The notes under the pieces are model-generated. The model worked only from the letters and a program-made list of their open reading frames with translations, was not told where the DNA came from and made no database searches. From assembly GCA_008080515.1 (NCBI GenBank), contig VIKH01000005.1:1698-53440 (forward strand): 51,743 nt of DNA. Reading direction: 5' to 3'. Positions 23,356 to 38,109 of this stretch are shown one piece after another (position 1 is the first letter of the stretch; each line of letters begins with the position of its first letter). Both the position numbers and the translations under genes were made by a program. Source of the DNA: Gallionellaceae bacterium. GTDB taxonomy: Bacteria; Pseudomonadota; Gammaproteobacteria; Burkholderiales; Gallionellaceae.

Positions 23356-23369
23356 TTGATATACATCAA
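23356..23369 (+). promoter_or_regulatory. Fnr binding site upstream of the heme-copper cluster
   Basis: The sequence TTGATATACATCAA matches the Fnr consensus TTGAT-N4-ATCAA at every defined base. It lies 95 bases before the first small gene of the cluster. A weak -10 (GAAAAT, 23392-23397) is 31-32 bases from the box centre, the spacing of a class II Fnr-activated promoter. An Fnr gene is in the window at 35855. Activation under low oxygen is inferred. Confidence 0.85.
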
Positions 23370-23464
23370 AGAAGTTTCGGGTCTGGGAAACGAAAATCGT
23401 CGGGCATGGTGAATAGGTGTTTTTTAAATACTTATTTAGTTAAAACATGAAATGGAGATCCGGT

Positions 23465-23608
23465 ATGGTTGCCTTAAAGCAGCAGGATGGGGTTGCATCA
23501 ATCGCTGGGCAAAAGATGCAAATGTCCAAGCCCCGAGTGATACTTACAGGCGTAATGGCGCTCACCGCTTTTTATGTGGTTTGGGGTATTGTCAAGGTAA
23601 TTTTGTAG
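23465..23608 (+). CDS. Miniature single-span membrane protein
   Basis: A 47-residue open frame with ATG at 23465 and GGAG 8 bases upstream. The first ~24 residues are polar and basic; residues 25-45 (VILTGVMALTAFYVVWGIVKV) form one membrane helix. It is the first gene after the perfect Fnr box. Small single-helix subunits are common in heme-copper oxidase operons, where they stabilise subunit I, so an accessory-subunit role is likely but inferred. I do not recognise a named family. Confidence 0.72.
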   Translation: MVALKQQDGVASIAGQKMQMSKPRVILTGVMALTAFYVVWGIVKVIL

Positions 23609-23660
23609 CGCGGGTTTTTTTGAGTTTGGTTTTTCGTTATCGTAACTTTGGGAGGTTTTT

Positions 23661-23810
23661 ATGTCGAATGAGCCGATTGAGCAACAAACTGTATTACAGC
23701 GCGTCCTTGATGACATCAATTTCATAATGATGCTGGGGTTGGTGATACCGACGGTGCTTTATACGCTGTGGGGAGTTATGGAAGTAGCTTCTCTTCCGCT
23801 GGCAAGATAA
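23661..23810 (+). CDS. Miniature single-span membrane protein
   Basis: A 49-residue open frame, with GGGAGG 5-6 bases upstream of the ATG at 23661. An acidic N-terminal stretch (NEPIEQQTVLQRVLDDIN) is followed by one membrane helix (FIMMLGLVIPTVLYTLWGVM). It lies 52 bases after the first mini-gene and 43 bases before the CuA subunit, all on the same strand. It is probably a second accessory subunit of the heme-copper enzyme encoded downstream. The family is not recognised. Confidence 0.72.
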   Translation: MSNEPIEQQTVLQRVLDDINFIMMLGLVIPTVLYTLWGVMEVASLPLAR

Positions 23811-23853
23811 TTCTGGCGTTCGGGATAATTTAATTTTTTAAGAGGGGGTTTCA

Positions 23854-24399
23854 ATGGGATATTCATTCACGGTACCAGACAAGAACTGGGCAAGAGAGCC
23901 GATTGAAAGAACGGAAATTTTGTGGATCGTCATTGCGGGTTCGTGGTGCCTTTTCATGTTTTGCTGGATGATCGCGTGGCACTGGATCGGCAATCAGAAC
24001 ATGAACACCGAAGCATATAAAACCTTTCCGGATGTCTACGCTAAAAAGACTGAGGATTTCACCAAACAATACACCGTGCGCCAGGACGCAAGCGATCCCA
24101 GTTTGCCGGTGGTGGCACCACCTCCGGGTAGCGACGTGTATATCGCGGGCAGCATATTCCAGTGGCGTCCGGTACTGGAGCTCCAGAAAGGCAAAAGCTA
24201 TCGCCTTCATATTTCGTCGCTGGACTATGTTCACGGTTTCTCGCTACAGCCGGAAAACATTAACTTCCAGGCTTACCCCGGATACGAGCAGGTGATTACG
24301 GTGACCCCCAACAAGGCCGGCACCTACGGGATCGTGTGCAATGATTATTGCGGTCTCGGCCACCATACCATGCTCGGCAGAATTTACGTAAAGGAGTAA
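23854..24399 (+). CDS. Heme-copper oxidase/reductase subunit II with CuA site (NorS/CoxB-like)
   Basis: This 181-residue protein has a single membrane helix near residues 23-45 and a C-terminal cupredoxin domain facing the periplasm. All CuA ligands are present: H127, C162, C166, H170 and M173 in CNDYCGLGHHTM. CuA accepts electrons from a soluble donor such as cytochrome c or a cupredoxin and passes them to subunit I. The protein has only one N-terminal helix, as in B-family oxidases and the CuA-type NO reductases derived from them. A ribosome binding site (GAGGGGG) precedes it; the subunit I gene follows 4 bases later with its own AAGGAG. Confidence 0.9.
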   Translation: MGYSFTVPDKNWAREPIERTEILWIVIAGSWCLFMFCWMIAWHWIGNQNMNTEAYKTFPDVYAKKTEDFTKQYTVRQDASDPSLPVVAPPPGSDVYIAGSIFQWRPVLELQKGKSYRLHISSLDYVHGFSLQPENINFQAYPGYEQVITVTPNKAGTYGIVCNDYCGLGHHTMLGRIYVKE

Positions 24400-24403
24400 A
24401 ACA

Positions 24404-26101
24404 ATGGCCATAACAACTGCTCAATCCCCGTTCCGCACGGACCCGCTGACCGGTCTGCGCATTGACCTCGCGGCGCAGGCATTGGTAAAAACCAATGCGG
24501 TGCTAGCGGTCGTATTCCTGTTGGTGGGAGGCCTTGCAGGCTTGCTGGTCGCCTTGACCCGCTGGCCGGCAGTACACCTGCTCCCGGCCGATCTGTTTTA
24601 TATGGCGCTGACCGCTCACGGTTTGGTGGCGCTGGTGGTTTGGATCGTCTTTTTTGAAATGGCGGTTATTTATTTCTGTGCCACATCCCTGCTCAGTTGT
24701 CGGTTGGCTGCTCCAAAATGGGCGTGGGCGCAGGTTGTGCTGATGACTATCGGCACCGCCATCACCACCGTTGCGGTGTTGCAGGGTGAGTCCAGCGTGA
24801 TGTTTTCGGCATATGTTCCCTTGGCCGCAGCACCGCATTTTTATCTTGGCATCATCCTGTTTGCGGTGGGCGCATTGATCGGCTGCTTCGTATTTTGGGG
24901 CACGCTGGTGATCGCCAAGGAAGAAAAGACATATGAAGGATCTTTGCCGCTGACCGTATATGGCTGCATGATCGCGGTGGTAATCGCGGTATTCACGCTC
25001 GCTACGGGCGCTATTATTTTGATTCCGGCATTTCTGTGGTCGCTGGGTCTGATCAAGAGCGTGGATCCGATGATGTATCGCGTGATTTTCTGGGGGTTCG
25101 GCCACTCTTCGCAACAAATCAACGTGGTGGCCCATATCACGATCTGGTACACCGTTGCTGGACTTGCTTTCGGTGCCAAGCCGATGTCGGAAAAAGTCAG
25201 TCGTACGGCTTTCCTGCTGTATATCTGCTTCCTGCAACTGGGTTCGACTCACCACCTGCTGTCCGACCCGGGTTTGAGCGCATCGTGGAAGATAGTGAAC
25301 ACCAGCTACATGATGTATCTGGCAGTGCTGGCCAGCCTGATCCACGGCCTGACAGTTCCCGGCTCGATCGAGGTTGCGCAACGCAGGAACGGCCTGAACA
25401 ACGGTTTGTTCGAGTGGCTGCGCAAATGCCCGTGGGGTAACCCGGTGTTCTCCTCCACGATCCTGTCCATCATCATTTTTGGCTTCATCGGCGGGATCAG
25501 CGGCGTGGTGATGAGCGTGGAACAGATCAACATGATCATCCACAACACCATCTACGTGCCTGGGCATTTTCATGCAACGGTGGCTGGGGGCACTACACTG
25601 GCATTCATGGGCTTGACTTACTACCTGATCCCGGTGTTGTTTCAGCGCCAGCTTATCATGAAGCCTTTGGCGGCTATCCAGCCTTGGCTGTTTGGCGGCG
25701 GCATGACAGTATTTGGGGTCGCCCTGATGGGTGCTGGTACGCTGGGCGTGCCGCGCCGTCACCAGGACATGACCTTTGCCGGCCAAGCTTTGTCATATGA
25801 CTACGGCGGCATGAACCAGCTGTTGATGGCTGTCGGCGAAATCGGCGGTGTAGTGTCGGTGGTCGGCGGTGCGATCTTCATCCTGGTTGTGGTTGGTTCC
25901 ATCCTGATGGGCGAACCGGTTCCGGCAAATGCCAAGTGCATCGTGGCGCCTCCTGCTGACGCGGGCGGGCACAAGAAAATCGGCATGGGTGGCCTCGAAG
26001 CTCCCGGCACGTTTGTCTTGGCTCTGACGCTGTTTGTTTGCTTGGTGCTGTACTACTTCGTCAACTTCAAGTATCTGGCTACCCTGTGGCCAATGAATTG
26101 A
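24404..26101 (+). CDS. Heme-copper subunit I lacking the active-site tyrosine (NorY-like or B-family)
   Basis: This 565-residue protein has about 13 membrane helices. The six metal-ligand histidines are present: H72 and H390 (low-spin heme), H388 (high-spin heme), and H234, H283 and H284 (CuB). In oxygen reductases of the A and B families the sequence H-P-x-V-Y puts the cross-linked tyrosine four residues after the CuB histidine; here it is H234-S-S-Q-Q238, so the residue is glutamine. Loss of this tyrosine is a mark of the NO reductases derived from the B family, including the NorSY enzyme of ammonia oxidisers. A CuA subunit precedes it and SCO1/SenC follows, as in norSY-senC. An O2-reducing role is not excluded. 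Confidence 0.85.
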   Translation: MAITTAQSPFRTDPLTGLRIDLAAQALVKTNAVLAVVFLLVGGLAGLLVALTRWPAVHLLPADLFYMALTAHGLVALVVWIVFFEMAVIYFCATSLLSCRLAAPKWAWAQVVLMTIGTAITTVAVLQGESSVMFSAYVPLAAAPHFYLGIILFAVGALIGCFVFWGTLVIAKEEKTYEGSLPLTVYGCMIAVVIAVFTLATGAIILIPAFLWSLGLIKSVDPMMYRVIFWGFGHSSQQINVVAHITIWYTVAGLAFGAKPMSEKVSRTAFLLYICFLQLGSTHHLLSDPGLSASWKIVNTSYMMYLAVLASLIHGLTVPGSIEVAQRRNGLNNGLFEWLRKCPWGNPVFSSTILSIIIFGFIGGISGVVMSVEQINMIIHNTIYVPGHFHATVAGGTTLAFMGLTYYLIPVLFQRQLIMKPLAAIQPWLFGGGMTVFGVALMGAGTLGVPRRHQDMTFAGQALSYDYGGMNQLLMAVGEIGGVVSVVGGAIFILVVVGSILMGEPVPANAKCIVAPPADAGGHKKIGMGGLEAPGTFVLALTLFVCLVLYYFVNFKYLATLWPMN

Positions 26102-26131
26102 TGGCGAGTTGACCTGAGAGGTACCAAACAC

Positions 26132-26156
26132 GCGGGGAGGCTTAACACCTCCCCGC
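26132..26156 (+). terminator. Hairpin between subunit I and ctaB
   Basis: A perfect 9-base-pair stem (GCGGGGAGG / CCTCCCCGC) with a 7-base loop lies 31 bases after the subunit I stop. The following bases are only weakly T-rich, so it may attenuate rather than stop transcription into ctaB. It may also stabilise the 3' end of the upstream message. Confidence 0.6.
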
Positions 26157-26218
26157 TGTTCTGGAGTTAACGGCAAAGGCGTGGTGCATTTCACGCCCAA
26201 CCACTTGGGGTTCGTAAT

Positions 26219-27076
26219 ATGGGAGCAGCTATCAAACAAGTTACCGATTTGTTCAAGCTGAGAATCGGTATTGTCATCAGCTTTACTGCTCTAGCTGGTG
26301 TGGCGGTAACGCCAGGCACGCTGGACGGTTGGAAAATTGCGTTGCTGGGCTTGGCGGTCTTGGTATCTTCAGCCAGCGCTGGTGCGTTTAACCAATATGT
26401 GGAGCGGGACATAGATGTGCGCATGGCGCGCACTCGGAAGCGGCCATTTGTCACTGGCACCCTGCAGCATGGGCCATTCTGGCTATGCGTTATTCTGACC
26501 ATGCTGGTTGGATCGGTATCGGTAGCGGCTGTGGCGCTCAATGTAACCTCTGCGCTATTTGTGTTCCTTGGGGCGTTTTTCTATGCCGTGGTTTATACGG
26601 TATGGCTGAAGCGACGCACCTGGATGAACATCGTAATCGGCGGGTTGGCGGGCAGCTTTGCGGTTTTGGCGGGCGCGGCAGCGGTCAATCCGGAGTTGAG
26701 CTCGCAAGCACTGGTATTGGCTACCATCCTGTTTTTGTGGACACCCCCGCATTTCTGGAGTTTGGCGATTGCCTACCACAAGGATTACGATGCTGCCAAG
26801 GTTCCCATGTTGCCGGTGGTGGTTGGGGACGAGCGTGCGGCAAAAATAATTTTTAGCAGCACCGTTCTGCTGGTGGCAACCTCGCTGACACCGATATTTT
26901 TCGGCATGGGCTGGGTGTACTTTGCCGGTGCGGCGATTGGCGGTGCCTATTTCTTGGCGAAGAGCGCCAAGCTGGCGCTTGCTCCAAGCCGCGCAACAGC
27001 CATGTCGTGCTTTCATGCATCGCTGATGCAACTGACTTTGCTGTTGACTTCCGCCATGCTGGATGCATCGCTATAA
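26219..27076 (+). CDS. ctaB: Protoheme IX farnesyltransferase (heme O synthase)
   Basis: This 285-residue membrane protein has about nine hydrophobic segments and the UbiA-type prenyltransferase signatures. The first is NQYVERDIDVRMARTRKRP near residue 60, an Nx3Dx3D-type prenyl-diphosphate site. The second is YHKDYDAAKVPMLPVV near residue 181. It attaches a farnesyl group to heme B to make heme O, which CtaA (encoded at 33872-34795) can convert to heme A. Its place between subunit I and the SCO protein indicates that the heme-copper enzyme contains heme O or A. Confidence 0.94.
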   Translation: MGAAIKQVTDLFKLRIGIVISFTALAGVAVTPGTLDGWKIALLGLAVLVSSASAGAFNQYVERDIDVRMARTRKRPFVTGTLQHGPFWLCVILTMLVGSVSVAAVALNVTSALFVFLGAFFYAVVYTVWLKRRTWMNIVIGGLAGSFAVLAGAAAVNPELSSQALVLATILFLWTPPHFWSLAIAYHKDYDAAKVPMLPVVVGDERAAKIIFSSTVLLVATSLTPIFFGMGWVYFAGAAIGGAYFLAKSAKLALAPSRATAMSCFHASLMQLTLLLTSAMLDASL

Positions 27077-27084
27077 GTTTGTTG

Positions 27085-27918
27085 ATGCGCCTATTGTTGC
27101 TTCTTGCCTTGCTGTTTGGTTTTGGGGCTGCGTTTGCCTTTGAAGAAAACGGACAAGCAGCAGCTCCAACCAATTTCAGCAATGAAGCCGCGCTGAAATT
27201 CAGCGAAAGTGTGGTCGGCCAGCAGGTGGGCGACTACACCTTGCTCGACCGTAACGGCAAGCCTTTCAAGATTTCCGACTACCGCGGCAAACCTCTGCTG
27301 GTCAGCTTCATCTACACCAGTTGCTCGGAAATCTGCCCTGCCACCACCCAATACCTCGCTAAAGCGGTGAAATACATGCAGGCCGCGCTCGGGGCGGACA
27401 GCTTTGCCGTGCTCACGCTGGGGTTCAACGCGCCATTCGATTCTCCGATGATGATGCGCGATTTTGCCCGGCGGCAAAATATCAATTTGCCAAACTGGGA
27501 ATTTGCGAGCGCAGACGCGGCAACGATGCGAAACCTGACCCGCAATCTCGGCTTCAGTTACGAATACTCGGTCGCGGGTTTTAACCATATCTCCCTTCTT
27601 ACCCTGATAGATCAGAACGGCAAGATTTATAGCCAAGTTTATGGGGATAGATTCGAGCTCCCGTCGATGGGAGAACCGCTGAAGAAACTGGTGGGTAATG
27701 TGGAGACCCAGTATCCGGGATGGGAGGGATTGCGCAACCGCATCCGTTTGTTCTGCACTGTGTATGACGCGAAAACTCAAACTTATGTGACCGATTACTC
27801 GTTTTTTGTCGGCATGTTTATCAGCGTAATCCTGATTTATTTCTTTGTTGCCTGGCTCGTCCGAGCATGGCGCAATGCTCCGGATCACCAGGCTAACGAC
27901 AACAAGAAATCGCAGTAA
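27085..27918 (+). CDS. SCO1/SenC copper chaperone with C-terminal membrane anchor
   Basis: This 277-residue protein begins with a signal-like helix (residues 1-18) and has a thioredoxin-fold domain with the copper site C80-x3-C84 (SCSEIC) and H168 (FNHISL). SCO proteins deliver copper to, or reduce, the CuA site of subunit II. Unusually, after the normal domain the protein continues about 65 residues and ends in a second membrane helix (about 240-260), so it should be anchored at both ends. The start at 27085, 8 bases after ctaB, is favoured by the hydrophobic N-terminus. A SenC gene next to subunits II and I is part of the described norSY-senC arrangement. Confidence 0.88.
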   Translation: MRLLLLLALLFGFGAAFAFEENGQAAAPTNFSNEAALKFSESVVGQQVGDYTLLDRNGKPFKISDYRGKPLLVSFIYTSCSEICPATTQYLAKAVKYMQAALGADSFAVLTLGFNAPFDSPMMMRDFARRQNINLPNWEFASADAATMRNLTRNLGFSYEYSVAGFNHISLLTLIDQNGKIYSQVYGDRFELPSMGEPLKKLVGNVETQYPGWEGLRNRIRLFCTVYDAKTQTYVTDYSFFVGMFISVILIYFFVAWLVRAWRNAPDHQANDNKKSQ

Positions 27919-28153
27919 TTTTGCGCTCTTCTTGGTCGGCACGAATGCCGCGCTGCGCTTCAGAGCTTGGTTCGTGGCCTGATGGCGAGCTACGCCCTGT
28001 TTGATAGCGGGCCATCTGATGACGATTTACGGGTGACGAAAAGAATTGTCAGTAAGCCAGCGAGCTGCCATAATCTGCATATAAGATACAATTTAAACTT
28101 GGTGCCGAGAGGTTTTGGTGCGGAAGAATTTGACGAGTTAGCGTGGAGCAGAT

Positions 28154-30034
28154 GTGATCAAGCTATTGCAGCGTATTGGGCAGGCACTATTTCTGCGGGT
28201 AGAGAAAGGGTTTAACTCCGTTTTTGGGGCAGAACTGAACCCTATGTACCAGTTGGGTGCCGGGTTCTATATATACGCCTTTTATCGAACCGGAATAAAC
28301 GAAGCGTATTCCTCGATCGAGAAAATTACCCACGAACAATGGTACCTGGGCGGGATCATGCGCAGCCTGCATCGGTACGCATCGGATGCCATGGTTGTGC
28401 TCGTTCTGGTACACATGGCGCGCAATTTTTCGATGAACCGGTTGAGCGGGTTCAGGGCTTTTTCCTGGATTACCGGCATCGTGCTTCTTCTGCTGTTGTT
28501 TATTTCGGGAATAAACGGCTATTGGCTGGTGTGGGATCGGCTTGCGCAGTTTGTGGCAATAGCCAGCACCGAGTTTCTTGATTGGCTACCGATTTTTGCC
28601 TCTCCGCTCGTAAGAAATTTTCTTACTCCGGATAGCGTCAACGACCGTTTCTTTTCAATGCTCGCCTTTGCACATATTGGCATTCCGCTGGTGATGCTGA
28701 TTTTTATCATGGTTCATACCCAGCGCGTGAGCGGTGCCAAAACTTTTCCATCTACTCAAATTGCCTACGGTTTTGGCCTCACGCTGCTGATATTGTCGCT
28801 GGTCAAACCTGCTTTGAGCCAAGGGCCGGCCGACTTGGGCGCGGCTACCACACAAGTTCAGTTGGACTGGTTTTACATGGCGGCCTACCCGATGATATAT
28901 ACATGGCCGCACAGCCAGCTATGGGGTTTGGCCGGGGGTGTCATGGCAATATTGCTATTGTTGCCATTGTTTACACGGGCAAAGCGCAGCGCAGGTTTTC
29001 AGATTGCGACTGCGCCCACCATGCACAAAATCATGGCCAAGCCGGGGGAAACCGTGCTGGAAGCAGCATTGCGCCAGGATGTGCGCTTACCTTACACCTG
29101 CCGTGACGGCGCGTGCGGCAACTGCAAGGGCACTGTTTTGAGCGGCACAGTAGATTACGGTGTTTATCAGGAAAGCGCCTTGAGCGAGCAGGAAAAGCAG
29201 GCGGGAAAGGCATTGTTCTGCTGCGCCAAACCTCTGTCAGACCTTGAAATAGAATATTGCGAAGACGAGAATCTGAAACATATTCCGATCCAGCGCATAA
29301 AGTGTACCGTGCATAAGATGGTGCGCGCCGCACCAGAAGTAATGGTGCTGTATCTGAAATTGCCGCAAGGCAGCAAGCTGCAATTTATTGCCGGTCAATA
29401 CATTGACATCCTGCTGGAAGATGGGGCGCGGAGAAGTTTTTCGTTTGCCAATGCCCCGCACGACAATGAGTTAATCCAGTTGCATATTCGCCATATTCCA
29501 GGCGGCAGATTCACTACGCATGTGTTTGAGCAAATGAAAGAAGGCGATGAGGTGAATTTCGAAGGCCCGCTGGGCAGCTTCTACTTGCGTGATGACAGCG
29601 ACATGCCGGTTATTTTTGTGGCGGGTGCAACCGGTTTTGCACCGGTGAAGAGCATGTTGGAACACGCCTTTCATATTGGAAGCGAGCGCCGCTTGATATT
29701 GTACTGGGGGGCGAAGAAACGCGAAGACTTATACATGGCTGACTTGGTCGAGCGCTGGCAGCGGGAGCATGATAACTTTACTTTTGTCCCGGTGTTGTCG
29801 GAGGCTGGTGTGGCAGACGGCTGGCAGGGACGTGTCGGCATGGTGCACGAAGCCATCTTGCAGGATCATGCGGACTTGAGCGGCTTCCAGATATACGCAT
29901 GCGGCTCTTTGCAGATGGTGCAGGCGGCACGCCCAACTTTCTTGGCTCAAGGCTTGCCGGAAGATGCGTGCTTCTCTGACGCTTTTACCCTATCAGCGCC
30001 TAAAGCGGAGCAACCTGCCGGGGAGGTGCAGTAA
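28154..30034 (+). CDS. Fusion: cytochrome b, [2Fe-2S] ferredoxin and FAD/NAD(P)H reductase
   Basis: This 626-residue protein joins three electron-transfer modules. Residues 1-270 form a cytochrome b/b6-type membrane domain with two histidine pairs each 14 apart (H73/H87 and H174/H188), which would bind two b hemes. Residues about 280-375 form a plant-type ferredoxin with C316, C321, C324 and C357. Residues 380-626 form a ferredoxin-NADP reductase-type domain with the FAD motif RSFS (427-430) and nucleotide motif GATGFAP (491-497). GTG is the start, preceded by GGAG. Compared with the second cytochrome b at 32184, about 12 residues of the first membrane helix are missing. It could move electrons between NAD(P)H and the quinone pool or a partner complex; the direction is unknown. 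Confidence 0.85.
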   Translation: MIKLLQRIGQALFLRVEKGFNSVFGAELNPMYQLGAGFYIYAFYRTGINEAYSSIEKITHEQWYLGGIMRSLHRYASDAMVVLVLVHMARNFSMNRLSGFRAFSWITGIVLLLLLFISGINGYWLVWDRLAQFVAIASTEFLDWLPIFASPLVRNFLTPDSVNDRFFSMLAFAHIGIPLVMLIFIMVHTQRVSGAKTFPSTQIAYGFGLTLLILSLVKPALSQGPADLGAATTQVQLDWFYMAAYPMIYTWPHSQLWGLAGGVMAILLLLPLFTRAKRSAGFQIATAPTMHKIMAKPGETVLEAALRQDVRLPYTCRDGACGNCKGTVLSGTVDYGVYQESALSEQEKQAGKALFCCAKPLSDLEIEYCEDENLKHIPIQRIKCTVHKMVRAAPEVMVLYLKLPQGSKLQFIAGQYIDILLEDGARRSFSFANAPHDNELIQLHIRHIPGGRFTTHVFEQMKEGDEVNFEGPLGSFYLRDDSDMPVIFVAGATGFAPVKSMLEHAFHIGSERRLILYWGAKKREDLYMADLVERWQREHDNFTFVPVLSEAGVADGWQGRVGMVHEAILQDHADLSGFQIYACGSLQMVQAARPTFLAQGLPEDACFSDAFTLSAPKAEQPAGEVQ

Positions 30035-30543
30035 TGAAGCCTATAAATTATCTGGGGCAGGGGGTAGCCTACGCGCTGTTTGCCGTAGTGCTGGGTTATT
30101 TTTCCTCTTCTCCAGAATACGAACACATTCCACCAGGTCAAGCGCTGGTCAAGTTGAGTTTTAGCCATGCTGCGCAACGCAAGGGTGCGTGCCGCGAGCG
30201 TACCGACGAGGAGTTGGCGAAGCTCAAACCCAATATGCGTGTACGCAATGATTGCCCGCGCGAGCGGGCCGATGTGGTGGTGGAGCTGGAAATGGATGGC
30301 AAGCAGATTTATCACGTCGTGCTGCCACCACCGGGCCTCGCCCACGATGGTGCCGCATCCATCTATCGCCGCTTGCAGGTTCCCGCCGGGATGCACCGGT
30401 TTGTGGCGCGCCTCAAAGACAAGATGGACGGAGATTTTGATTTTATGCACGAAGAAAATGTTGACCTTGTTGCCGGGCGAGCGCTGGTGATTGATTTCAA
30501 GGCGGACGTTCCGGGTGCCCCCGGTTTCATGTTTAAAAAATAG
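30034..30543 (+). CDS. Uncharacterised anchored or exported protein of the cluster
   Basis: This 169-residue protein has an N-terminal hydrophobic stretch (VAYALFAVVLGYFS, residues 11-24) that serves as a signal or anchor. A soluble domain rich in charged residues with two cysteines (GACRER and NDCPRE) follows, and the C-terminus ends FMFKK. Its ATG overlaps the stop of the reductase fusion (TAATG) behind a GGGGAGG ribosome binding site, so its synthesis is coupled to that protein. I do not recognise the family. Position suggests a periplasmic accessory or assembly factor for the cytochrome b or heme-copper-like subunits. Confidence 0.75.
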   Translation: MKPINYLGQGVAYALFAVVLGYFSSSPEYEHIPPGQALVKLSFSHAAQRKGACRERTDEELAKLKPNMRVRNDCPRERADVVVELEMDGKQIYHVVLPPPGLAHDGAASIYRRLQVPAGMHRFVARLKDKMDGDFDFMHEENVDLVAGRALVIDFKADVPGAPGFMFKK

Positions 30544-30549
30544 CAAGCC

Positions 30550-31968
30550 ATGGCCGATATTGATGAAGCGAGAAATTATGCTGGCGCATCGCCCGATGCG
30601 GGTGGGCCTTTCGTGTTGCCAACACCCCATCCGGACAACCAGAAGCTGGCTGCAGGATGGCTGTGGTTGAGTTTTGCCGCGCTGGTGGGGGCGGGGTTGT
30701 TTGCGTTGTTTGTCGTGCTGGCGCGCACGCCCTATGTGTCCGATCTGTTTCCCACGGTGGATTTTTTTCGTAGCGCGCTGGTGGTGCATGTAGATCTATC
30801 GGTGCTGGTGTGGTTTTTTGCGTTTGCTGGTGTCTTGTGGAGCGCGGCCTCTCCGCCGAAGCTGATGCCGCTCGGCTGGATTGCGTTGCTGCTCGCGGTG
30901 GCGGGCATTCTGGTCGTGATGCTTTCGCCTTTTGTCGGTGCCGGTGGCCCGATCATGAACAACTACATCCCGGTGCTGGAAAACAAGATGTTTCTCACCG
31001 GGCTGTTCCTGTTTGGTTGCAGTGTAGGGCTGCTCGCTTTGCGCGGTTTGCTGACTGTTCCGCTTACCGGGTTTGGGCCGGGTAGAGAGGGCGGGGTGCT
31101 GTGCTTCGGGTTGGCTACCGCCGCATTTGCGACAGTCATGGCGCTGGTTGCTTTTGCCTGGGCCTTTGCCACCATACCGTTTTTTGTAAAGGGGTTGCCT
31201 TATTTCGAGGCGCTGTTCTGGGGTGGCGGCCACGTCATGCAGTTTTCCTATACGCTGCTGATGATGGTGGGCTGGCTGTGGCTGGCAGCCGAGTATGGGG
31301 CGCGAATTACCATGACCCCGCGCATTGCTTTGGCCATGTTTGCTCTCGGCGTCGCGCCAGTTCTGCTTACGCCGCTGATTTATTCCAGCTACGAGACCAA
31401 CACCAGTGCCAACATGGAAATGTTTATTACCATGATGAAAGCTGGCGGCGGCCTGGCTGTCGTGCCAGTCGGATTGGCCGTGATGGTCGCCATGTGGAAG
31501 CACGGTTACCCTGACCCGGAAATGGGGCCGCTGTTCGGGCACTTGATCTCTTCCCTGATATTGTTTGCGGTGGGCGGCGGCATCAGCTTTTTGATTAAGG
31601 ACAGCAACACCATTATTACCGCGCACTACCACGGCACCGGCGGGGGAGTGAGCCTGTCCTTTATGGGGATGTCTTTGGTGTTGTTGCACAAGCTGGGGTA
31701 CAAGGTAGTCAACTTCAAGCTCGCCCTCTGGATGCCCTATGTATATTGCGTGGGTCAGCTGATGCATATCATCGGGCTGCTATGGTCGGGTGGGTATGGC
31801 GTGCAGCGCAAGGTGGCGGGAGCGGATCAAGGGTTGCAAAGCTTTTCGCAGATTGCCGGCATGGGGCTGATGGGTGTCGGCGGCCTGATCGCGGTGGTTG
31901 GTGGCATCATGTTTCTGGTGGTGATATATCGCGCCTTGAAGGAACGGGGTACTGGCGGTACGAGGTAG
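30550..31968 (+). CDS. Heme-copper subunit I-like protein lacking the CuB histidine pair
   Basis: This 472-residue protein has about 12 membrane helices and keeps the heme ligands of the heme-copper superfamily: H80 (HVDLSVLVWF) and the H359-x-H361 pair (ITAHYHG). One CuB-type histidine is kept (H228 in GGGHVMQF). Where a histidine pair is expected there is SSYETNTS (Y281-E282), so CuB cannot bind in the usual way. It may be a structural or electron-relay subunit, or bind a different metal, rather than an oxygen reductase. It starts 7 bases after the small exported protein. It resembles no single named subtype I can assign; NOR-type families with altered CuB ligands are known. Confidence 0.78.
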   Translation: MADIDEARNYAGASPDAGGPFVLPTPHPDNQKLAAGWLWLSFAALVGAGLFALFVVLARTPYVSDLFPTVDFFRSALVVHVDLSVLVWFFAFAGVLWSAASPPKLMPLGWIALLLAVAGILVVMLSPFVGAGGPIMNNYIPVLENKMFLTGLFLFGCSVGLLALRGLLTVPLTGFGPGREGGVLCFGLATAAFATVMALVAFAWAFATIPFFVKGLPYFEALFWGGGHVMQFSYTLLMMVGWLWLAAEYGARITMTPRIALAMFALGVAPVLLTPLIYSSYETNTSANMEMFITMMKAGGGLAVVPVGLAVMVAMWKHGYPDPEMGPLFGHLISSLILFAVGGGISFLIKDSNTIITAHYHGTGGGVSLSFMGMSLVLLHKLGYKVVNFKLALWMPYVYCVGQLMHIIGLLWSGGYGVQRKVAGADQGLQSFSQIAGMGLMGVGGLIAVVGGIMFLVVIYRALKERGTGGTR

Positions 31969-32098
31969 TATCTCCATAGGCCTTTGGCCGAGAGGTTTCG
32001 CGTGCGGCGTGCGAATCTTGGTTCGCGGTTGACCGGGCCGGACATTCCATAGCCCTGCAATGCAGCGAAATGTATTGTGACTTTCCTCACAGACAACC

Positions 32099-32140
32099 GC
32101 GCGACGGCCTCGTACTATCTAATTAGGATAGCCGCCGCGC
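32099..32140 (+). other. Hairpin in the 215-base gap before the second cytochrome b
   Basis: GCGCGACGGC (32099-32108) pairs with GCCGCCGCGC (32131-32140) with one mismatch, around a loop that contains CTATC/GATAG arms. The gap between the heme-copper-like gene and the cytochrome b at 32184 holds no other visible gene or Fnr box. The hairpin could attenuate or stabilise transcripts; this is inference. Confidence 0.4.
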
Positions 32141-32183
32141 GCATGAGCTCGCACTTACAACTTCGCCAACTTCATTTCCCGGG

Positions 32184-33719
32184 ATGAACCCTTTCCAGAA
32201 TTCCTGGCGGCGCTTGGAAAACCTTTTCAATGCCCCGTTCGGCCAAGCATTGAATCCCTGGTACCACCTTGGGGCTGTCATCTATTTTCTGTTCTGGGTC
32301 GTGGTGGTCAGCGGCATTTACCTCTATATTTTTTATCGCACCGGAGTCAATGAGGCGTACCAGACTGTCGAGGAGCTGACCCACGATCAGCCGTATGCCG
32401 GCGGCGTGATGCGCAGCCTGCATCGCTACGCCTCTGACGGCATCGTGGTGGCGATGCTGTTGCACATGTTGCGCAATTTCATATACGGGCGATTCCACGG
32501 ATTCCGCTGGTTTTCCTGGGTCACCGGGGTGTTGCTGATCTGGCTGGTTTACATTTGCGGCATCAACGGCTACTGGATGGTGTGGGACAGGATGGCGCAA
32601 TTTGTCGCGGTGGCCACCACGGAATGGTTTGATTGGTTGCCGCTTTTCAGCGAGCCGCTGGCGCGCAATTTTCTTTTCCAGGGCAATGTCAGCGACCGCT
32701 TCATCAACATGCTGTCGTTTATCCACATTACGCTTCCGCTCGTCTTGCTGCTGTTCATGTGGGTGCATACCAAGCGCATGAACAACGCGGAAACCTATCC
32801 GCCGCAGAGTCTCGCTGTGGGCACGTTGCTGGCGCTGCTGGTGCTGTCGCTGATCAAACCGGCGTTGAGCCACGCGAAAGCCGACTTATCGTTAGTGCCG
32901 GAAACCATCCGGCTCGACTGGTTCTATCTGGGGCCGTATCCGCTGATTTATGCCTGGTCGCCGGGTGCGGTGTGGGCTCTGGTTGGCGGGATCACCCTGC
33001 TGTTGCTCGCGGTACCTTGGCTTCTGAAGCCGCGCACCCGCACTCCGGTGGCTGAAGTTCATCTGGACAATTGCAACGGGTGCGAGCGCTGCTTTAACGA
33101 CTGCCCCTATTCGGCCATCTTGATGCAACCGCGTGAGGATGGCAGGCCATACTTGCTGCAACCGGTGGTGGATCCAAAATTGTGTGCGAGTTGCGGCATT
33201 TGCGTCGGTGCCTGCCCGTCCTCGATGCCGTTCCGGCATCAGGAGTTGGTCAGCGGTATCGAATTGCCCGATAAGCTATTGCGGGTGCAGCGCGCCGATA
33301 CCGATCACGCGCTGGACGGGTTGCGAGGGAATGCGCGCGTCATGGTGTTCGGTTGCGACCGCGCTTATGATGTGCGCGCATTGCAGTCGGACGAGGTGGC
33401 GGCACTGTCGCTGCCGTGCATCGGGATGTTGCCCCCGGCGTTCACAGACTATGCGTTGCGCGATGCGCGCGCTGACGGCGTGCTGATCGCAGGTTGCCGC
33501 GAATGCGATTGCCAGTACCGGTTAGGCATACAATGGACCGAGCAGCGCTTGGCGCGTGAGCGCGAGCCAAAGTTGCGCCAGCGCGTTCCGCTCCAGCGCA
33601 TCGAGACATGTTGGGCGGGGCCGCTGGATAAGAAACGGGTGCACACCGCGCTTTCCGCGCTACGGGCGCGAATCTCGCAAATGCCGCGCGAATCATTCGG
33701 AGAAGAGCGGGAACTCTAG
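32184..33719 (+). CDS. Fusion: cytochrome b, 2x[4Fe-4S] ferredoxin and MvhD-like domain
   Basis: This 511-residue protein has a cytochrome b/b6-type membrane domain (residues 1-285, paralogous to that at 28154) with H80/H94 and H181/H195. Then comes a two-cluster bacterial ferredoxin: C297, C300, C303, C307 and C334, C337, C340, C344. The C-terminal ~120 residues resemble the hydrogenase/heterodisulfide iron-sulfur subunit MvhD/FrhD, with C391, C412, C438, C441 and C443 (GCRECDCQYR). MvhD-type domains pass electrons to heterodisulfide reductase-like partners, none of which is in the window. The fusion suggests electron exchange between quinones and a low-potential or disulfide carrier. The stop codon lies inside a MITE-like element. 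Confidence 0.85.
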   Translation: MNPFQNSWRRLENLFNAPFGQALNPWYHLGAVIYFLFWVVVVSGIYLYIFYRTGVNEAYQTVEELTHDQPYAGGVMRSLHRYASDGIVVAMLLHMLRNFIYGRFHGFRWFSWVTGVLLIWLVYICGINGYWMVWDRMAQFVAVATTEWFDWLPLFSEPLARNFLFQGNVSDRFINMLSFIHITLPLVLLLFMWVHTKRMNNAETYPPQSLAVGTLLALLVLSLIKPALSHAKADLSLVPETIRLDWFYLGPYPLIYAWSPGAVWALVGGITLLLLAVPWLLKPRTRTPVAEVHLDNCNGCERCFNDCPYSAILMQPREDGRPYLLQPVVDPKLCASCGICVGACPSSMPFRHQELVSGIELPDKLLRVQRADTDHALDGLRGNARVMVFGCDRAYDVRALQSDEVAALSLPCIGMLPPAFTDYALRDARADGVLIAGCRECDCQYRLGIQWTEQRLAREREPKLRQRVPLQRIETCWAGPLDKKRVHTALSALRARISQMPRESFGEEREL

Positions 33720-33875
33720 CAGCCTAAAGGAAATCGGCTGCAAATCCACCTGGCCGGTGCATACTTTCGCCGCTTTTTTGGTCAATAGAACGACTATTGA
33801 CCTGCAAAATCGTCAAAATCTGCCCTCGCCCAGCCGGATTTTCGCTTCGATTCTTCAAGTCCGACAGGCTGCTAG
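33716..33875. mobile_element. MITE-like element between convergent genes
   Basis: A 10-base perfect terminal inverted repeat (CTAGCAGCCT at 33716-33725, AGGCTGCTAG at 33866-33875) bounds about 160 bases. A central perfect palindrome is present (GGTCAATAG 33780-33788, CTATTGACC 33794-33802). The ends contain the stop codons of both converging genes. There is no open frame for a transposase. I infer a miniature inverted-repeat element; other copies in the genome would confirm it. Confidence 0.6.
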
Positions 33876-34795
33876 GTCGGATCGCGCGGGCGGTAGCTGA
33901 AGGTAAGCAGGGCAAGCAACAGGAACGCCGCCGCAGCGTTATGCAGCAACACCAGAAAAAGTGGCGGGTTGCCGGTGGCGGCACCGATTCCCAGCGCAAC
34001 CTGGAGTGCGGCGACCGCGATCAGCAACTGGCCGCTACGCCGCCACTTTTCCCGGAACAGACCAATTCCCAGCCAGACGAGGTAAGCAACAACCGGCAAC
34101 GCCAGGAGCCGGTGCGCCATGTGCAAGGTTTGCTGCGTTGCGCCTGGCACAAAACTGCCCTCTTGCGTTACACCCAAGTAATGAAACGGGTTGAACGCAG
34201 CCAGTGTGGCATGTTGCAACCATCCTTCGCAACCGTTTAGACCAGCGCAACTGGAGACGGCAAAATTCGCACTGGTCATGCCACCCAGCGCGGCTTGCGC
34301 CGCCACCAGCATTAGGCCGATCCTTATCCAGCCACGCAAACCGGAAGGCGCGGCGGTTTGTGGCGAGTATCCGAGGTGCATGCGCCACAGCAACAGCAGC
34401 ATCCCGAGGCCGCCCAGCAGGTTTCCGAGCGCAACTGCGGGCAGGCGCGCATCGTGGGTCCATTTACCGAGTGCGGCAAGGAAGGCGGTCAAACCGAACA
34501 GTGCGAGCGCCAGCGGGAAATTGCGGTGTGCCGTGCGGCGGAGCCGCCAGGCGAGCGTGGCGATGGCAAGTGCGGCGAGACCCATGGCGCTCGCCGCGAT
34601 GCGGTGCGCGATGTTTATCCATTCCGGTCTGTGCGGAGCATGTCCGGCCAGAATGCGGCCATAACAGTCAGGCCAGTTATCGCAACCCAGCCCGGTAGCG
34701 GAAAGCCGCATGTAGGCGCTCAACATCACGACCGCCACCATCAGGGTGAAAGTGAGCGCTATCAGAACGTGGAGTGTGCGGTTGCCGTCAGTCAT
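33872..34795 (-). CDS. ctaA: Heme A synthase
   Basis: This 307-residue membrane protein has eight hydrophobic segments and the CtaA/Cox15 pattern: RLSATGLGCDNWPDCYG with a cysteine pair in the first loop, HRIAAS histidine motifs, and a second Cys loop SSCAGLNGCEGW. It converts heme O (made by CtaB, 26219-27076) to heme A. It faces the heme-copper cluster and overlaps the MITE-like element at its 3' end. With ctaB on the other strand, the pair supplies heme A to the nearby enzyme. A small membrane protein gene precedes it in the same direction. Confidence 0.93.
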   Translation of the reverse strand: MTDGNRTLHVLIALTFTLMVAVVMLSAYMRLSATGLGCDNWPDCYGRILAGHAPHRPEWINIAHRIAASAMGLAALAIATLAWRLRRTAHRNFPLALALFGLTAFLAALGKWTHDARLPAVALGNLLGGLGMLLLLWRMHLGYSPQTAAPSGLRGWIRIGLMLVAAQAALGGMTSANFAVSSCAGLNGCEGWLQHATLAAFNPFHYLGVTQEGSFVPGATQQTLHMAHRLLALPVVAYLVWLGIGLFREKWRRSGQLLIAVAALQVALGIGAATGNPPLFLVLLHNAAAAFLLLALLTFSYRPRDPT

Positions 34796-35551: not shown

Positions 35552-35854
35552 TTCATTACTCTCCTGTTGGGTTAATAATTACAACGTTTTACAGTCACGG
35601 CAGCCTAATTTCAGCCGCCGGTATTCTGTGTCAGAACCACCCTGTGCCGTTTGATGTAAATCAAATTTAGGCGGGGCGACAGTACCAGCATACTTCTTAA
35701 GGACAAGCCGCTCAAATGGCGGGCGGCATTACCAAACTCATCACCATTGCGTCTTTGGCCGCAACCTGAAAAAACTGAAATAAATTGCGGTTAGTGGTTA
35801 AAACGGCTCTCCCGGGTTTTCGTTGACATCAACCCGACCAGACTCGCAAAATCA
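35552..35854. other. Intergenic region upstream of the cytochrome c gene
   Basis: This 303-base stretch between the fnr stop and the cytochrome c start has no visible gene. It holds the Fnr box at 35651-35664 and a possible -10 (CAGAAT on the minus strand, 35623-35628). The rest, next to the 3' end of fnr, shows no structure I can interpret. Confidence 0.6.
35651..35664 (-). promoter_or_regulatory. Fnr binding site for the cytochrome c gene
   Basis: TTGATGTAAATCAA matches the Fnr consensus at all defined positions. On the minus strand the candidate -10 CAGAAT (35628-35623) lies 32 bases from the box centre, consistent with class II activation. It points to the cytochrome c gene starting at 35551. 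Confidence 0.85.
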
Positions 35855-36634: not shown

Positions 36635-36648
36635 TTGATTTACATCAA
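36635..36648 (+). promoter_or_regulatory. Fnr binding site between fnr and hemN
   Basis: TTGATTTACATCAA is a perfect Fnr consensus. On the plus strand CATAAT (36670-36675) lies 31 bases from the box centre, a good -10 for class II activation of hemN, whose ATG is at 36706. The box is also 46 bases upstream of the fnr start, so it could modulate fnr. Confidence 0.9.
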
Positions 36649-36705: not shown

Positions 36706-38109
36706 ATGCCGTCGAGCATAAAAGCAACATCAGAGCTGGAAGTAGACTTGGATTTGATCCGCAGGCTGGACAAAAATGGCCCACGTTACACCTCGTATCC
36801 CACCGCTGACCGCTTTGTCGAGGAGTTCAACGCGGAAAGCTACCGCAGTTGGGTAGCCAAGCGCGAAATCGGCGGCATCAGCCGCCCGCTATCGTTGTAT
36901 TTCCACATTCCTTTTTGCAATACGCTTTGTTTTTATTGCGCGTGCAACAAGATTATCACCAAGGATCGCAGCAAGGCTGAAGATTATGTCCGCTATCTGG
37001 TCAAAGAGTTGTCCATGCAAGCGGCCTTGCTGGGCGAGGGGCAGCGCGTCGAGCAACTGCATTGGGGTGGCGGTACGCCGACGTTTCTCAACGACGACTT
37101 GATGCGCAAGCTGATGGATGCGACACGCCAGCATTTCAAGATGGTGGAAAACGGCGAGTATTCCATCGAAATTGATCCGCGCAAGGTCAGCGACCAGACC
37201 GTAGTGCTGCTTGCCGAAATGGGTTTCAACCGTATCAGTCTGGGCGTGCAGGACTTTGACCCGCAAGTGCAGCGCGCGGTCAACCGTATTCAGAGCGAGG
37301 AGGAAACGCTCCAGGTTATCCGTGCCGCGCGCGCCAACGGCTTCAAATCTATCAGCATAGATCTTATTTACGGTCTGCCGAAGCAGAGTTTGACCGGTTT
37401 CAAGGCCACGCTGGACAAGGTGATCGCTGCGGATCCGGATCGCCTGTCCATCTACAACTACGCGCACATGCCCACCATTTTCAAACCGCAGCGCCGTATC
37501 CACGAAGAAGAGCTGCCTGCACCGCAGGTCAAGCTGGACATTTTGAGCCTTGCGGTGAAAACCCTGACCGACGCCGGTTATATCTATATCGGCATGGATC
37601 ACTTTGCCAAACCGGATGACGAGCTGGCGGTAGCGCAGCGCCAGGGCAGGCTGCACCGTAATTTTCAGGGGTATTCCACCCATTCGGACTGTGATCTGGT
37701 GGCACTGGGCGTGAGCGCAATCGGCAAGATCGGCCCGACCTACAGCCAGAACTACCGGGAGCTGGAGGAATACTACGATGCTCTGGACCGCGACGAGTTG
37801 CCCATCATGCGTGGCATGGAGCTGGATGCCGACGACCTGGTGCGCCGCGCCATCATCCAGGCTTTGATGTGCCACTTCGAGCTTTCCAAGGAATCGTTCA
37901 ATATTGCCTACCTGATAGACTTTGATCGCTACTTCGCCACCGAGCTCGACGAGCTGCGCGAGTACCAGCGCGAAGGGCTTCTCAAGCTTACCCCTGAATG
38001 GATCGGCGTCACGCCAAAAGGGCGCATGTTGATCCGCAACATCTGCATGGTCTTCGACAAGTATCTGCGCACGAAACAACAGCACGCCCGCTATTCCAAG
38101 GTAATATAG
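36706..38109 (+). CDS. hemN: Oxygen-independent coproporphyrinogen III oxidase
   Basis: This 467-residue radical SAM enzyme decarboxylates coproporphyrinogen III to protoporphyrinogen IX without oxygen, allowing heme synthesis in low oxygen. The [4Fe-4S] motif CNTLCFYCAC has C71, C75 and C78. The N-terminal RYTSYPTADRF and the GGGTPTF and GFNRISLGVQDF motifs are characteristic of HemN rather than of HemW-like paralogues. A GGAG site precedes the ATG, and the Fnr box is 57 bases upstream. The next gene, a flavin oxidoreductase, begins 25 bases after the stop and is probably co-transcribed. Confidence 0.96.
   Translation: MPSSIKATSELEVDLDLIRRLDKNGPRYTSYPTADRFVEEFNAESYRSWVAKREIGGISRPLSLYFHIPFCNTLCFYCACNKIITKDRSKAEDYVRYLVKELSMQAALLGEGQRVEQLHWGGGTPTFLNDDLMRKLMDATRQHFKMVENGEYSIEIDPRKVSDQTVVLLAEMGFNRISLGVQDFDPQVQRAVNRIQSEEETLQVIRAARANGFKSISIDLIYGLPKQSLTGFKATLDKVIAADPDRLSIYNYAHMPTIFKPQRRIHEEELPAPQVKLDILSLAVKTLTDAGYIYIGMDHFAKPDDELAVAQRQGRLHRNFQGYSTHSDCDLVALGVSAIGKIGPTYSQNYRELEEYYDALDRDELPIMRGMELDADDLVRRAIIQALMCHFELSKESFNIAYLIDFDRYFATELDELREYQREGLLKLTPEWIGVTPKGRMLIRNICMVFDKYLRTKQQHARYSKVI

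Follow-up and report, generated by a model that had tools for sequence, protein, structure and literature searches.

A putative eNOR-type nitric oxide reductase gene block extended by cytochrome b fusion proteins in a Gallionellaceae bacterium

The window analysed here, a 51,743-nucleotide (nt) stretch of contig VIKH01000005.1 from a Gallionellaceae bacterium akin to the freshwater iron oxidisers and represented by a 2.9-Mb metagenome-assembled genome (MAG; 90% complete), contains at positions 23356–33719 a block of genes for haem-copper and cytochrome b proteins behind a palindrome of the FNR class (Table 1). A preliminary description made from the letters of the window had named two mini membrane proteins, a CuA subunit, a haem-copper oxidoreductase (HCO) subunit I, CtaB, a SCO protein, two cytochrome b fusion proteins, an exported protein (here Exp) and a second haem-copper protein (here HCO2), and every one of these genes was recovered by Pfam and NCBIfam searches and by reading of the open reading frames (ORFs). 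Intergenic gaps within the block measure −1 to +8 nt in four cases, 43 and 52 nt in two, and 117, 235 and 215 nt in three, the widest making a single transcript for the whole block only putative. The block is interpreted, with moderate confidence, as a putative operon for an eNOR-type enzyme that would reduce nitric oxide (NO), extended by a module carrying electrons between quinones and the cytoplasm.

Table 1. Genes and sites of the block and its convergent neighbour, in window coordinates (RBS, ribosome-binding site; aa, amino acids)
Feature	Position	Strand	Basis or remark
FNR/NnrR-Dnr-class palindrome TTGATATACATCAA	23356..23369	+	Perfect TTGAT-N4-ATCAA match
Mini membrane protein 1, 47 aa	23465..23608	+	ORF behind an RBS, with a hydrophobic stretch; may start further 5' at 23447
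Mini membrane protein 2, 49 aa	23661..23810	+	RBS-preceded ORF
CuA subunit II (eNOR subunit II)	23854..24399	+	Pfam COX2
Haem-copper subunit I, eNOR type, H234...Q238	24404..26101	+	Pfam COX1, E=7e-67
CtaB, haem O synthase	26219..27076	+	TIGR01473 above cut-off; Pfam UbiA
SCO1/SenC copper chaperone	27085..27918	+	PF02630; start probably 27085, not the GTG of the ORF at 27007
Cytochrome b – [2Fe-2S] – FAD/NAD(P) reductase fusion	28154..30034	+	Pfam Cytochrome_B, Fer2 and FAD/NAD-binding
Exp, anchored exported protein	30034..30543	+	No family in Pfam or NCBIfam
HCO2, haem-copper paralogue retaining one of three CuB histidines	30550..31968	+	Pfam COX1, exactly at cut-off
Cytochrome b – 2[4Fe-4S] – MvhD/FlpD fusion	32184..33719	+	Pfam Cytochrome_B, Fer4 and FlpD (MvhD)
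CtaA/COX15 haem A synthase, convergent neighbour	33872..34795	−	PF02628, E=1.5e-34

The closest kin of subunit I among solved structures include a ba3-type oxidase, aligned over most of its length. All six HCO histidines are kept in 76/76 aligned rows, including one outlier (the 35th match, 32% identical) that retains the cross-linking tyrosine and was dropped; in each of the remaining 75 sequences, window included, glutamine replaces this tyrosine at residue 238, four residues after the CuB histidine of transmembrane helix (TM) VI, which bears out the earlier view of a tyrosine-less subunit I. The gene directly upstream encodes the CuA subunit, whose ligands C162, C166, H127 and H170 are found in 65/65 sequences (the methionine ligand uncounted). 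According to Table A4 of PMC8756737, the residue at the tyrosine site is tyrosine in O2 reductases, glutamate in cNOR and qNOR, asparagine in sNOR and the Bacillus enzyme, aspartate in gNOR and glutamine in eNOR. Glutamine at this site thus marks eNOR in the published scheme, and the best reading of subunit I is as an eNOR-type protein, on the basis of the glutamine, the six histidines and the upstream CuA subunit. A second study considers six genomes with narGH, two MAGs of the KS culture among them, and reports eNOR in four of the six without specifying which (PMC10734462); the block is carried by one KS-culture genome, Candidatus Ferrigenium straubiae KS03 (locus L100), which fits that report.

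Conservation of the block was assessed in an unbiased sample of 369 genomes of the class, the window's own included, with subunit I as bait. It is present in 34 of them at 56–100% identity, and the 24 loci with at least 4.5 kb downstream were tallied, the ten with shorter flanks being left out: SCO is found in 23, the CuA subunit, the MvhD fusion and Exp in 22 each, CtaB in 17, HCO2 in 13 and the reductase fusion in one, that of the window. In the two loci (one genus) without an adjacent fusion and Exp, the fusion and Exp lie ∼14–16 kb away on the same contig and the other strand, and HCO2 is likewise found elsewhere on that contig. A further set assembled with HCO2 as bait, comprising 40 loci from part of the matched genomes and 80 loci that were the best 80 of at least 574 relatives, is biased towards HCO2 carriers, so that HCO2 frequency within it is given by construction. 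A subunit I orthologue at ≥300 bits occurs in 68 of its 109 distinct loci; counted over 118 loci, 79 hold subunit I, 56 of those with at least 8 kb behind it, and in these 56 Exp is found in 56, the MvhD head and SCO in 55 each, the CuA subunit in 53, CtaB in 51 and the reductase head in 39. The order CuA subunit, subunit I, (CtaB), SCO, cytochrome b fusion, Exp and HCO2 recurs, with the second fusion on either side of HCO2, in Gallionella, Ca. Ferrigenium, Comamonas, Simplicispira, Herbaspirillum, Quisquiliibacterium, Acidiferrobacteraceae and others, and chance juxtaposition of the block's genes is rejected by this recurrence across loci.

The core of the block, made up of eNOR, SCO, the cytochrome b–MvhD fusion and Exp, is kept together far beyond the genus, and the objection that the genes are not conserved together fails for this core. 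HCO2 is a frequent addition to it, and the reductase fusion is a lineage-limited one, as its 39/56 in the HCO2-selected set indicates. The combination with both fusions, as first described, stands for the MvhD fusion (22/24) and falls for the reductase fusion beside subunit I (1/24); a fixed pair of fusions was rejected, the class sample showing only the MvhD fusion as general. Subunit I and HCO2 occur together in 28/369 genomes (34 and 46 carry each, hand-counted; Fisher p=3e-24), and among 18 genomes of the family, which were chosen and not random, the six with HCO2 are the same six with subunit I.

HCO2 is 25% identical to subunit I and has no match among solved structures up to E=1. The His-His pair of TM VII is missing in 103/103 HCO2 sequences and one of the three CuB/FeB histidines is kept, so the paralogue was rightly called CuB-altered; all 103 carry H80, H228, H359, H361 and an additional H406, among them the haem ligands of TM II and TM X (H80, H359, H361). 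Since the haem ligands are kept but a normal CuB site is impossible, HCO2 is most likely a haem-only partner or maturation factor and not a second reductase. The family extends to 58/398 genomes of the phylum at E values up to 1e-40 and to 9/37 genomes of the bacterium's own family, window included. On a tree of 103 rows, HCO2 was labelled by whether the retrieved stretch also holds subunit I, the MvhD fusion or Exp. This label needs 7 changes, of which starred branches force at least five, whereas shuffled labels need 16.9 on average; the linkage is thus clustered on the tree, and its origin may be single or multiple.

Other neighbourhoods of HCO2 hold different enzymes. It stands beside COX1, COX2 and SCO genes in L129 and in L086, a member of the class, adjoins CtaA and SCO in L083 and CtaA in L117, and shows no link to cytochrome oxidase genes or CtaA in L080. 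The genomes of L086 and L083 (G273 and G409), the two of these four that were searched with subunit I, gave no match to it. Association with oxidase genes and CtaA speaks for a role common to haem-A enzymes and against one confined to NO reduction. The view that HCO2 belongs to every eNOR set was rejected, as 6/34 subunit I genomes lack it at >100 bits, and is also contradicted by its occurrence beside other cytochrome oxidase genes. As separate observations, L129, from a Nitrospirota MAG, reads COX3, SCO, COX2, COX1 and a CtaB-like gene followed by HCO2, an Rrf2 regulator and a weakly bd-oxidase-like protein, and distant COX1-like and CtaB-like matches precede HCO2 in L138.

The cytochrome b parts of the two fusions are 54% identical. 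Four haem histidines, eight ferredoxin cysteines and four MvhD-domain cysteines are kept in 75/75 MvhD fusions, and four haem histidines and four ferredoxin cysteines in 47/47 reductase fusions, the motif filter behind these counts having removed no row. Behind the b6-like part, 60/74 and 44/46 sequences, respectively, have a DWFY-like stretch; D245, W246 and Y248 are invariant among 12 MvhD fusions, and three of nine matches of a profile of these 12 to solved structures (yeast-type cytochrome b) extend to profile position 283–285, past the DWFY. The stretch may resemble the PEWY motif. No Rieske or c1 gene was found by Pfam scan among the genes of the block. In the window's reductase fusion, a 12-codon gap in TM1 (within 28154–28460) is either a true deletion or a MAG artefact.

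Exp is without a match in Pfam and NCBIfam searches; C53, C74, R69, R76 and R78 are invariant in a 38-row alignment, and an AlphaFold2 model with an N-terminal helix and seven strands of at least three residues (mean predicted local distance difference test score, 94.6) suggests a TM-anchored beta-sandwich with its domain presumably periplasmic. Where an eNOR block has no HCO2, Exp is followed by a haemerythrin-like ORF (L199, L200, L201) and by CtaA (L198, L200, L201), both identified by eye. At the other end of the block, the corresponding place in 63/64 loci, window included, holds one or more mini ORFs that follow an RBS and encode a hydrophobic segment. ORFs similar to mini membrane protein 1 occur in L088, L089, L051 and L095, and dissimilar ones in L100 and L105. 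Mini protein 2 has no match in a Pfam search; its motif PTV[FL]YxxWGxME is kept across families in 10/13 relatives compared, with a looser form in L100, L105 and L144, and the B-type HCO may have it as a small subunit, of the kind present in other B-type enzymes.

The perfect Fnr box of the preliminary description lies where it was placed, upstream of the cluster, and the whole window holds six FNR-class sites with at most one mismatch, against 1.2 expected, a number attained in none of the shuffles. Among 63 distinct loci, TTGAY-N4-RTCAA occurs in 33, at 277–535 nt 5' of the CuA gene (600 nt examined), compared with 4.7% of random windows and 0.2% of shuffles, and the FNR consensus with at most one mismatch occurs in 37 over the same 600 nt, compared with 6.1% and 2.2%; the random windows were drawn from the same loci and may overlap the tested stretch, and duplicates and two contig-end loci were left out. 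FNR and the NO-sensing NnrR/Dnr proteins bind alike, and the best reading of these sites is control of the block by a regulator of the FNR or NO-sensor class, either being possible. Two further perfect FNR-class boxes lie at 35651–35664 and 36635–36648, the latter 57 nt 5' of a HemN-like radical SAM gene at 36706–38109.

A COX1-family search of the bacterium's own genome returned three matches: a cbb3 subunit (identified by eye), subunit I and HCO2. None is a cNOR or qNOR, and because NorB-like proteins do match the COX1 family, as seen in ammonia oxidisers (typed by length and by eye), these enzymes are probably absent from the genome, within its 90% completeness. Three genes of the cytochrome d1 fold (NirS family) lie within 8 kb of another contig, which fits NirS and its assembly kin taken together. 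Given that the other HCO in the cell is cbb3, a haem b enzyme, the enzyme of the block is the likely user of CtaB and CtaA, and the convergent CtaA gene probably serves it; two more UbiA-family genes and another CtaA piece are found elsewhere in the genome.

In the proposed function, the CuA subunit II and the glutamine-type subunit I, together with the mini subunits, would reduce NO to nitrous oxide, the NO arising from the organism's own NirS and the electrons reaching CuA from a periplasmic carrier, with copper supplied by SCO and haem O or A by CtaB and CtaA. Each cytochrome b fusion would place two b haems across the membrane and join them to a cytoplasmic redox head, either of the NAD(P)H type (FAD and 2Fe2S) or of the ferredoxin type (2[4Fe4S] and MvhD). 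With Exp on the outer face, a fusion may connect the quinone pool to NAD(P)H or ferredoxin by electron exchange during NO respiration; inward flow would be paid for from the membrane potential and could yield NAD(P)H or reduced ferredoxin, and outward flow would feed NO reduction. HCO2 would be the haem-only partner or maturation factor proposed above. Gene content, its conservation, the conserved residues and the box are observed, from which the NO substrate, haem type, electron path and direction, complex and role of HCO2 are inferred.

Several observations weigh against this proposal. The reductase fusion adjoins subunit I in one unbiased locus, which is the window itself; HCO2 stands beside subunit I in 13/24, is absent from six of the 34 subunit I genomes and occurs without subunit I in 18 others. 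Pfam matches only the N-terminal half of cytochrome b in the fusions, and the quinol-oxidation motif PEWY is found in 0/74 MvhD and 0/46 reductase fusions. The window's reductase fusion is without 36 nt (12 codons, in frame) of TM1 that are kept by L088, L089 and L051. The Fnr control proposed at first is backed by enrichment of the site (33/63 against 4.7% of random windows) but is not uniform, as none of 13 loci of the Gallionella clade (L096, L098–L100, L102, L105, L106, L110–L114 and L116, both Ferrigenium loci included) has an FNR-class site or a one-mismatch FNR match within 600 nt.

An alternative assignment would place the fusions, Exp and HCO2 outside the electron path of the reductase, with HCO2 and Exp acting as haem or copper maturation factors for haem-A enzymes. 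The neighbourhoods of HCO2 in L129, L086, L083 and L117, the lack of a subunit I match in G273 and G409, and the predicted anchor helix and two invariant cysteines of Exp all favour it; it is nevertheless judged unlikely, since a cytochrome b fusion, by its domains no maturation protein, precedes Exp in 22/24 unbiased loci, and five of the six subunit I genomes without HCO2 retain both the fusion and Exp (the sixth, L203, ends at a contig edge). A high-affinity O2 reductase for low oxygen, with NO chemistry secondary, would account for the complete CuB ligands and for control of the FNR class, which suits low oxygen, and an oxidase role has been argued for the sNOR of N. europaea in the passages available (PMC6967387); replacement of the cross-linking tyrosine of O2 reductases in 75/75 sequences and the presence of cbb3 and NirS-family proteins in the genome make this distinctly improbable. 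A bolder extension of the NO-reducing block, NO-driven electron bifurcation, is a long shot: the cytochrome b fusion would oxidise quinol at an outer site bearing DWFY, one electron passing via Exp and CuA to NO and the other inward via the two b haems, to ferredoxin or NAD(P)+, while HCO2 would serve as a relay in the membrane that holds haem only. If it were true, NO respiration would directly yield low-potential reductant for carbon fixation.

That the block is an sNOR (norSY-senC) locus as in ammonia oxidisers, with extra genes, is hardly credible: the order of CuA subunit, subunit I and SCO is shared and subunit I is likewise B-type without tyrosine, but its residue is glutamine in 75/75 where an ammonia-oxidiser locus of that layout (L233) has asparagine, with 22% identity between the two subunits I. 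L233 shows a layout of CuA subunit, HCO, SCO and a four-TM ORF, identified by eye, and a cytochrome b fusion is absent from the 4.3 kb retrieved. The likeness to norSY-senC suggested in the preliminary description thus does not hold beyond gene order. Ammonia oxidisers were picked by an ammonia monooxygenase (AMO) gene (8/300 genomes of the order), and the haem-copper proteins of five from one family were read; these five genomes give matches of 25–27% to subunit I, and those read are oxidases bearing the tyrosine, which also speaks against an sNOR assignment.

Putative eNOR genes frequently go under the label of cytochrome c oxidase (PMC8756737), and NO reducers are overlooked as a result. 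The present analysis gives subunit I a fixed set of partners in many proteobacteria and brings to light a family of CuB-less HCO proteins. The block is present in records titled as isolates, namely Comamonas granuli (L144), Simplicispira hankyongi (L151), Herbaspirillum sp. (L126) and Quisquiliibacterium transsilvanicum (L135), and in the nitrate-reducing iron oxidisers Ca. Ferrigenium straubiae (L100) and bremense (L105); these organisms offer hosts for asking from where eNOR draws electrons and whether a link exists between NO respiration and NAD(P)H or ferredoxin.

Among known systems, cytochrome b6/bc-type proteins share with the fusions the N-terminal half, holding two b haems on four histidines (75/75 and 47/47); the fusions differ in that a DWFY-like stretch stands in place of PEWY and a redox head is added on the cytoplasmic side, in a block without Rieske or c1. 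The quinol reductase described for Accumulibacter by Garcia Martin in 2006 is reportedly a cytochrome b fused to NAD/ferredoxin-type domains, a make-up that the window's fusions would resemble. This 'novel quinol reductase' was proposed to re-oxidise quinols without oxygen, in the part of the source available (PMC4930944). The norSY-senC-orf1 cluster of ammonia oxidisers shares the order CuA, HCO and SCO, from which the block departs as set out above for L233. The qCuANOR/bNOR of B. azotoformans likewise combines CuA, a B-type HCO and a small peptide of the membrane, and differs in its replacement of tyrosine by asparagine (PMC3475470). Closest is eNOR, with which the block shares glutamine at the tyrosine site, the six histidines and a CuA subunit just upstream (PMC8756737, in part). 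The open literature, in the portions available and in searches only partly aimed at the fusions, gives no account of cytochrome b fusions, Exp or HCO2 beside eNOR. In those sources eNOR is described as two subunits or the enzyme is only named (PMC8756737, PMC10734462); to this the block adds cytochrome b fusions, Exp and a CuB-less paralogue.

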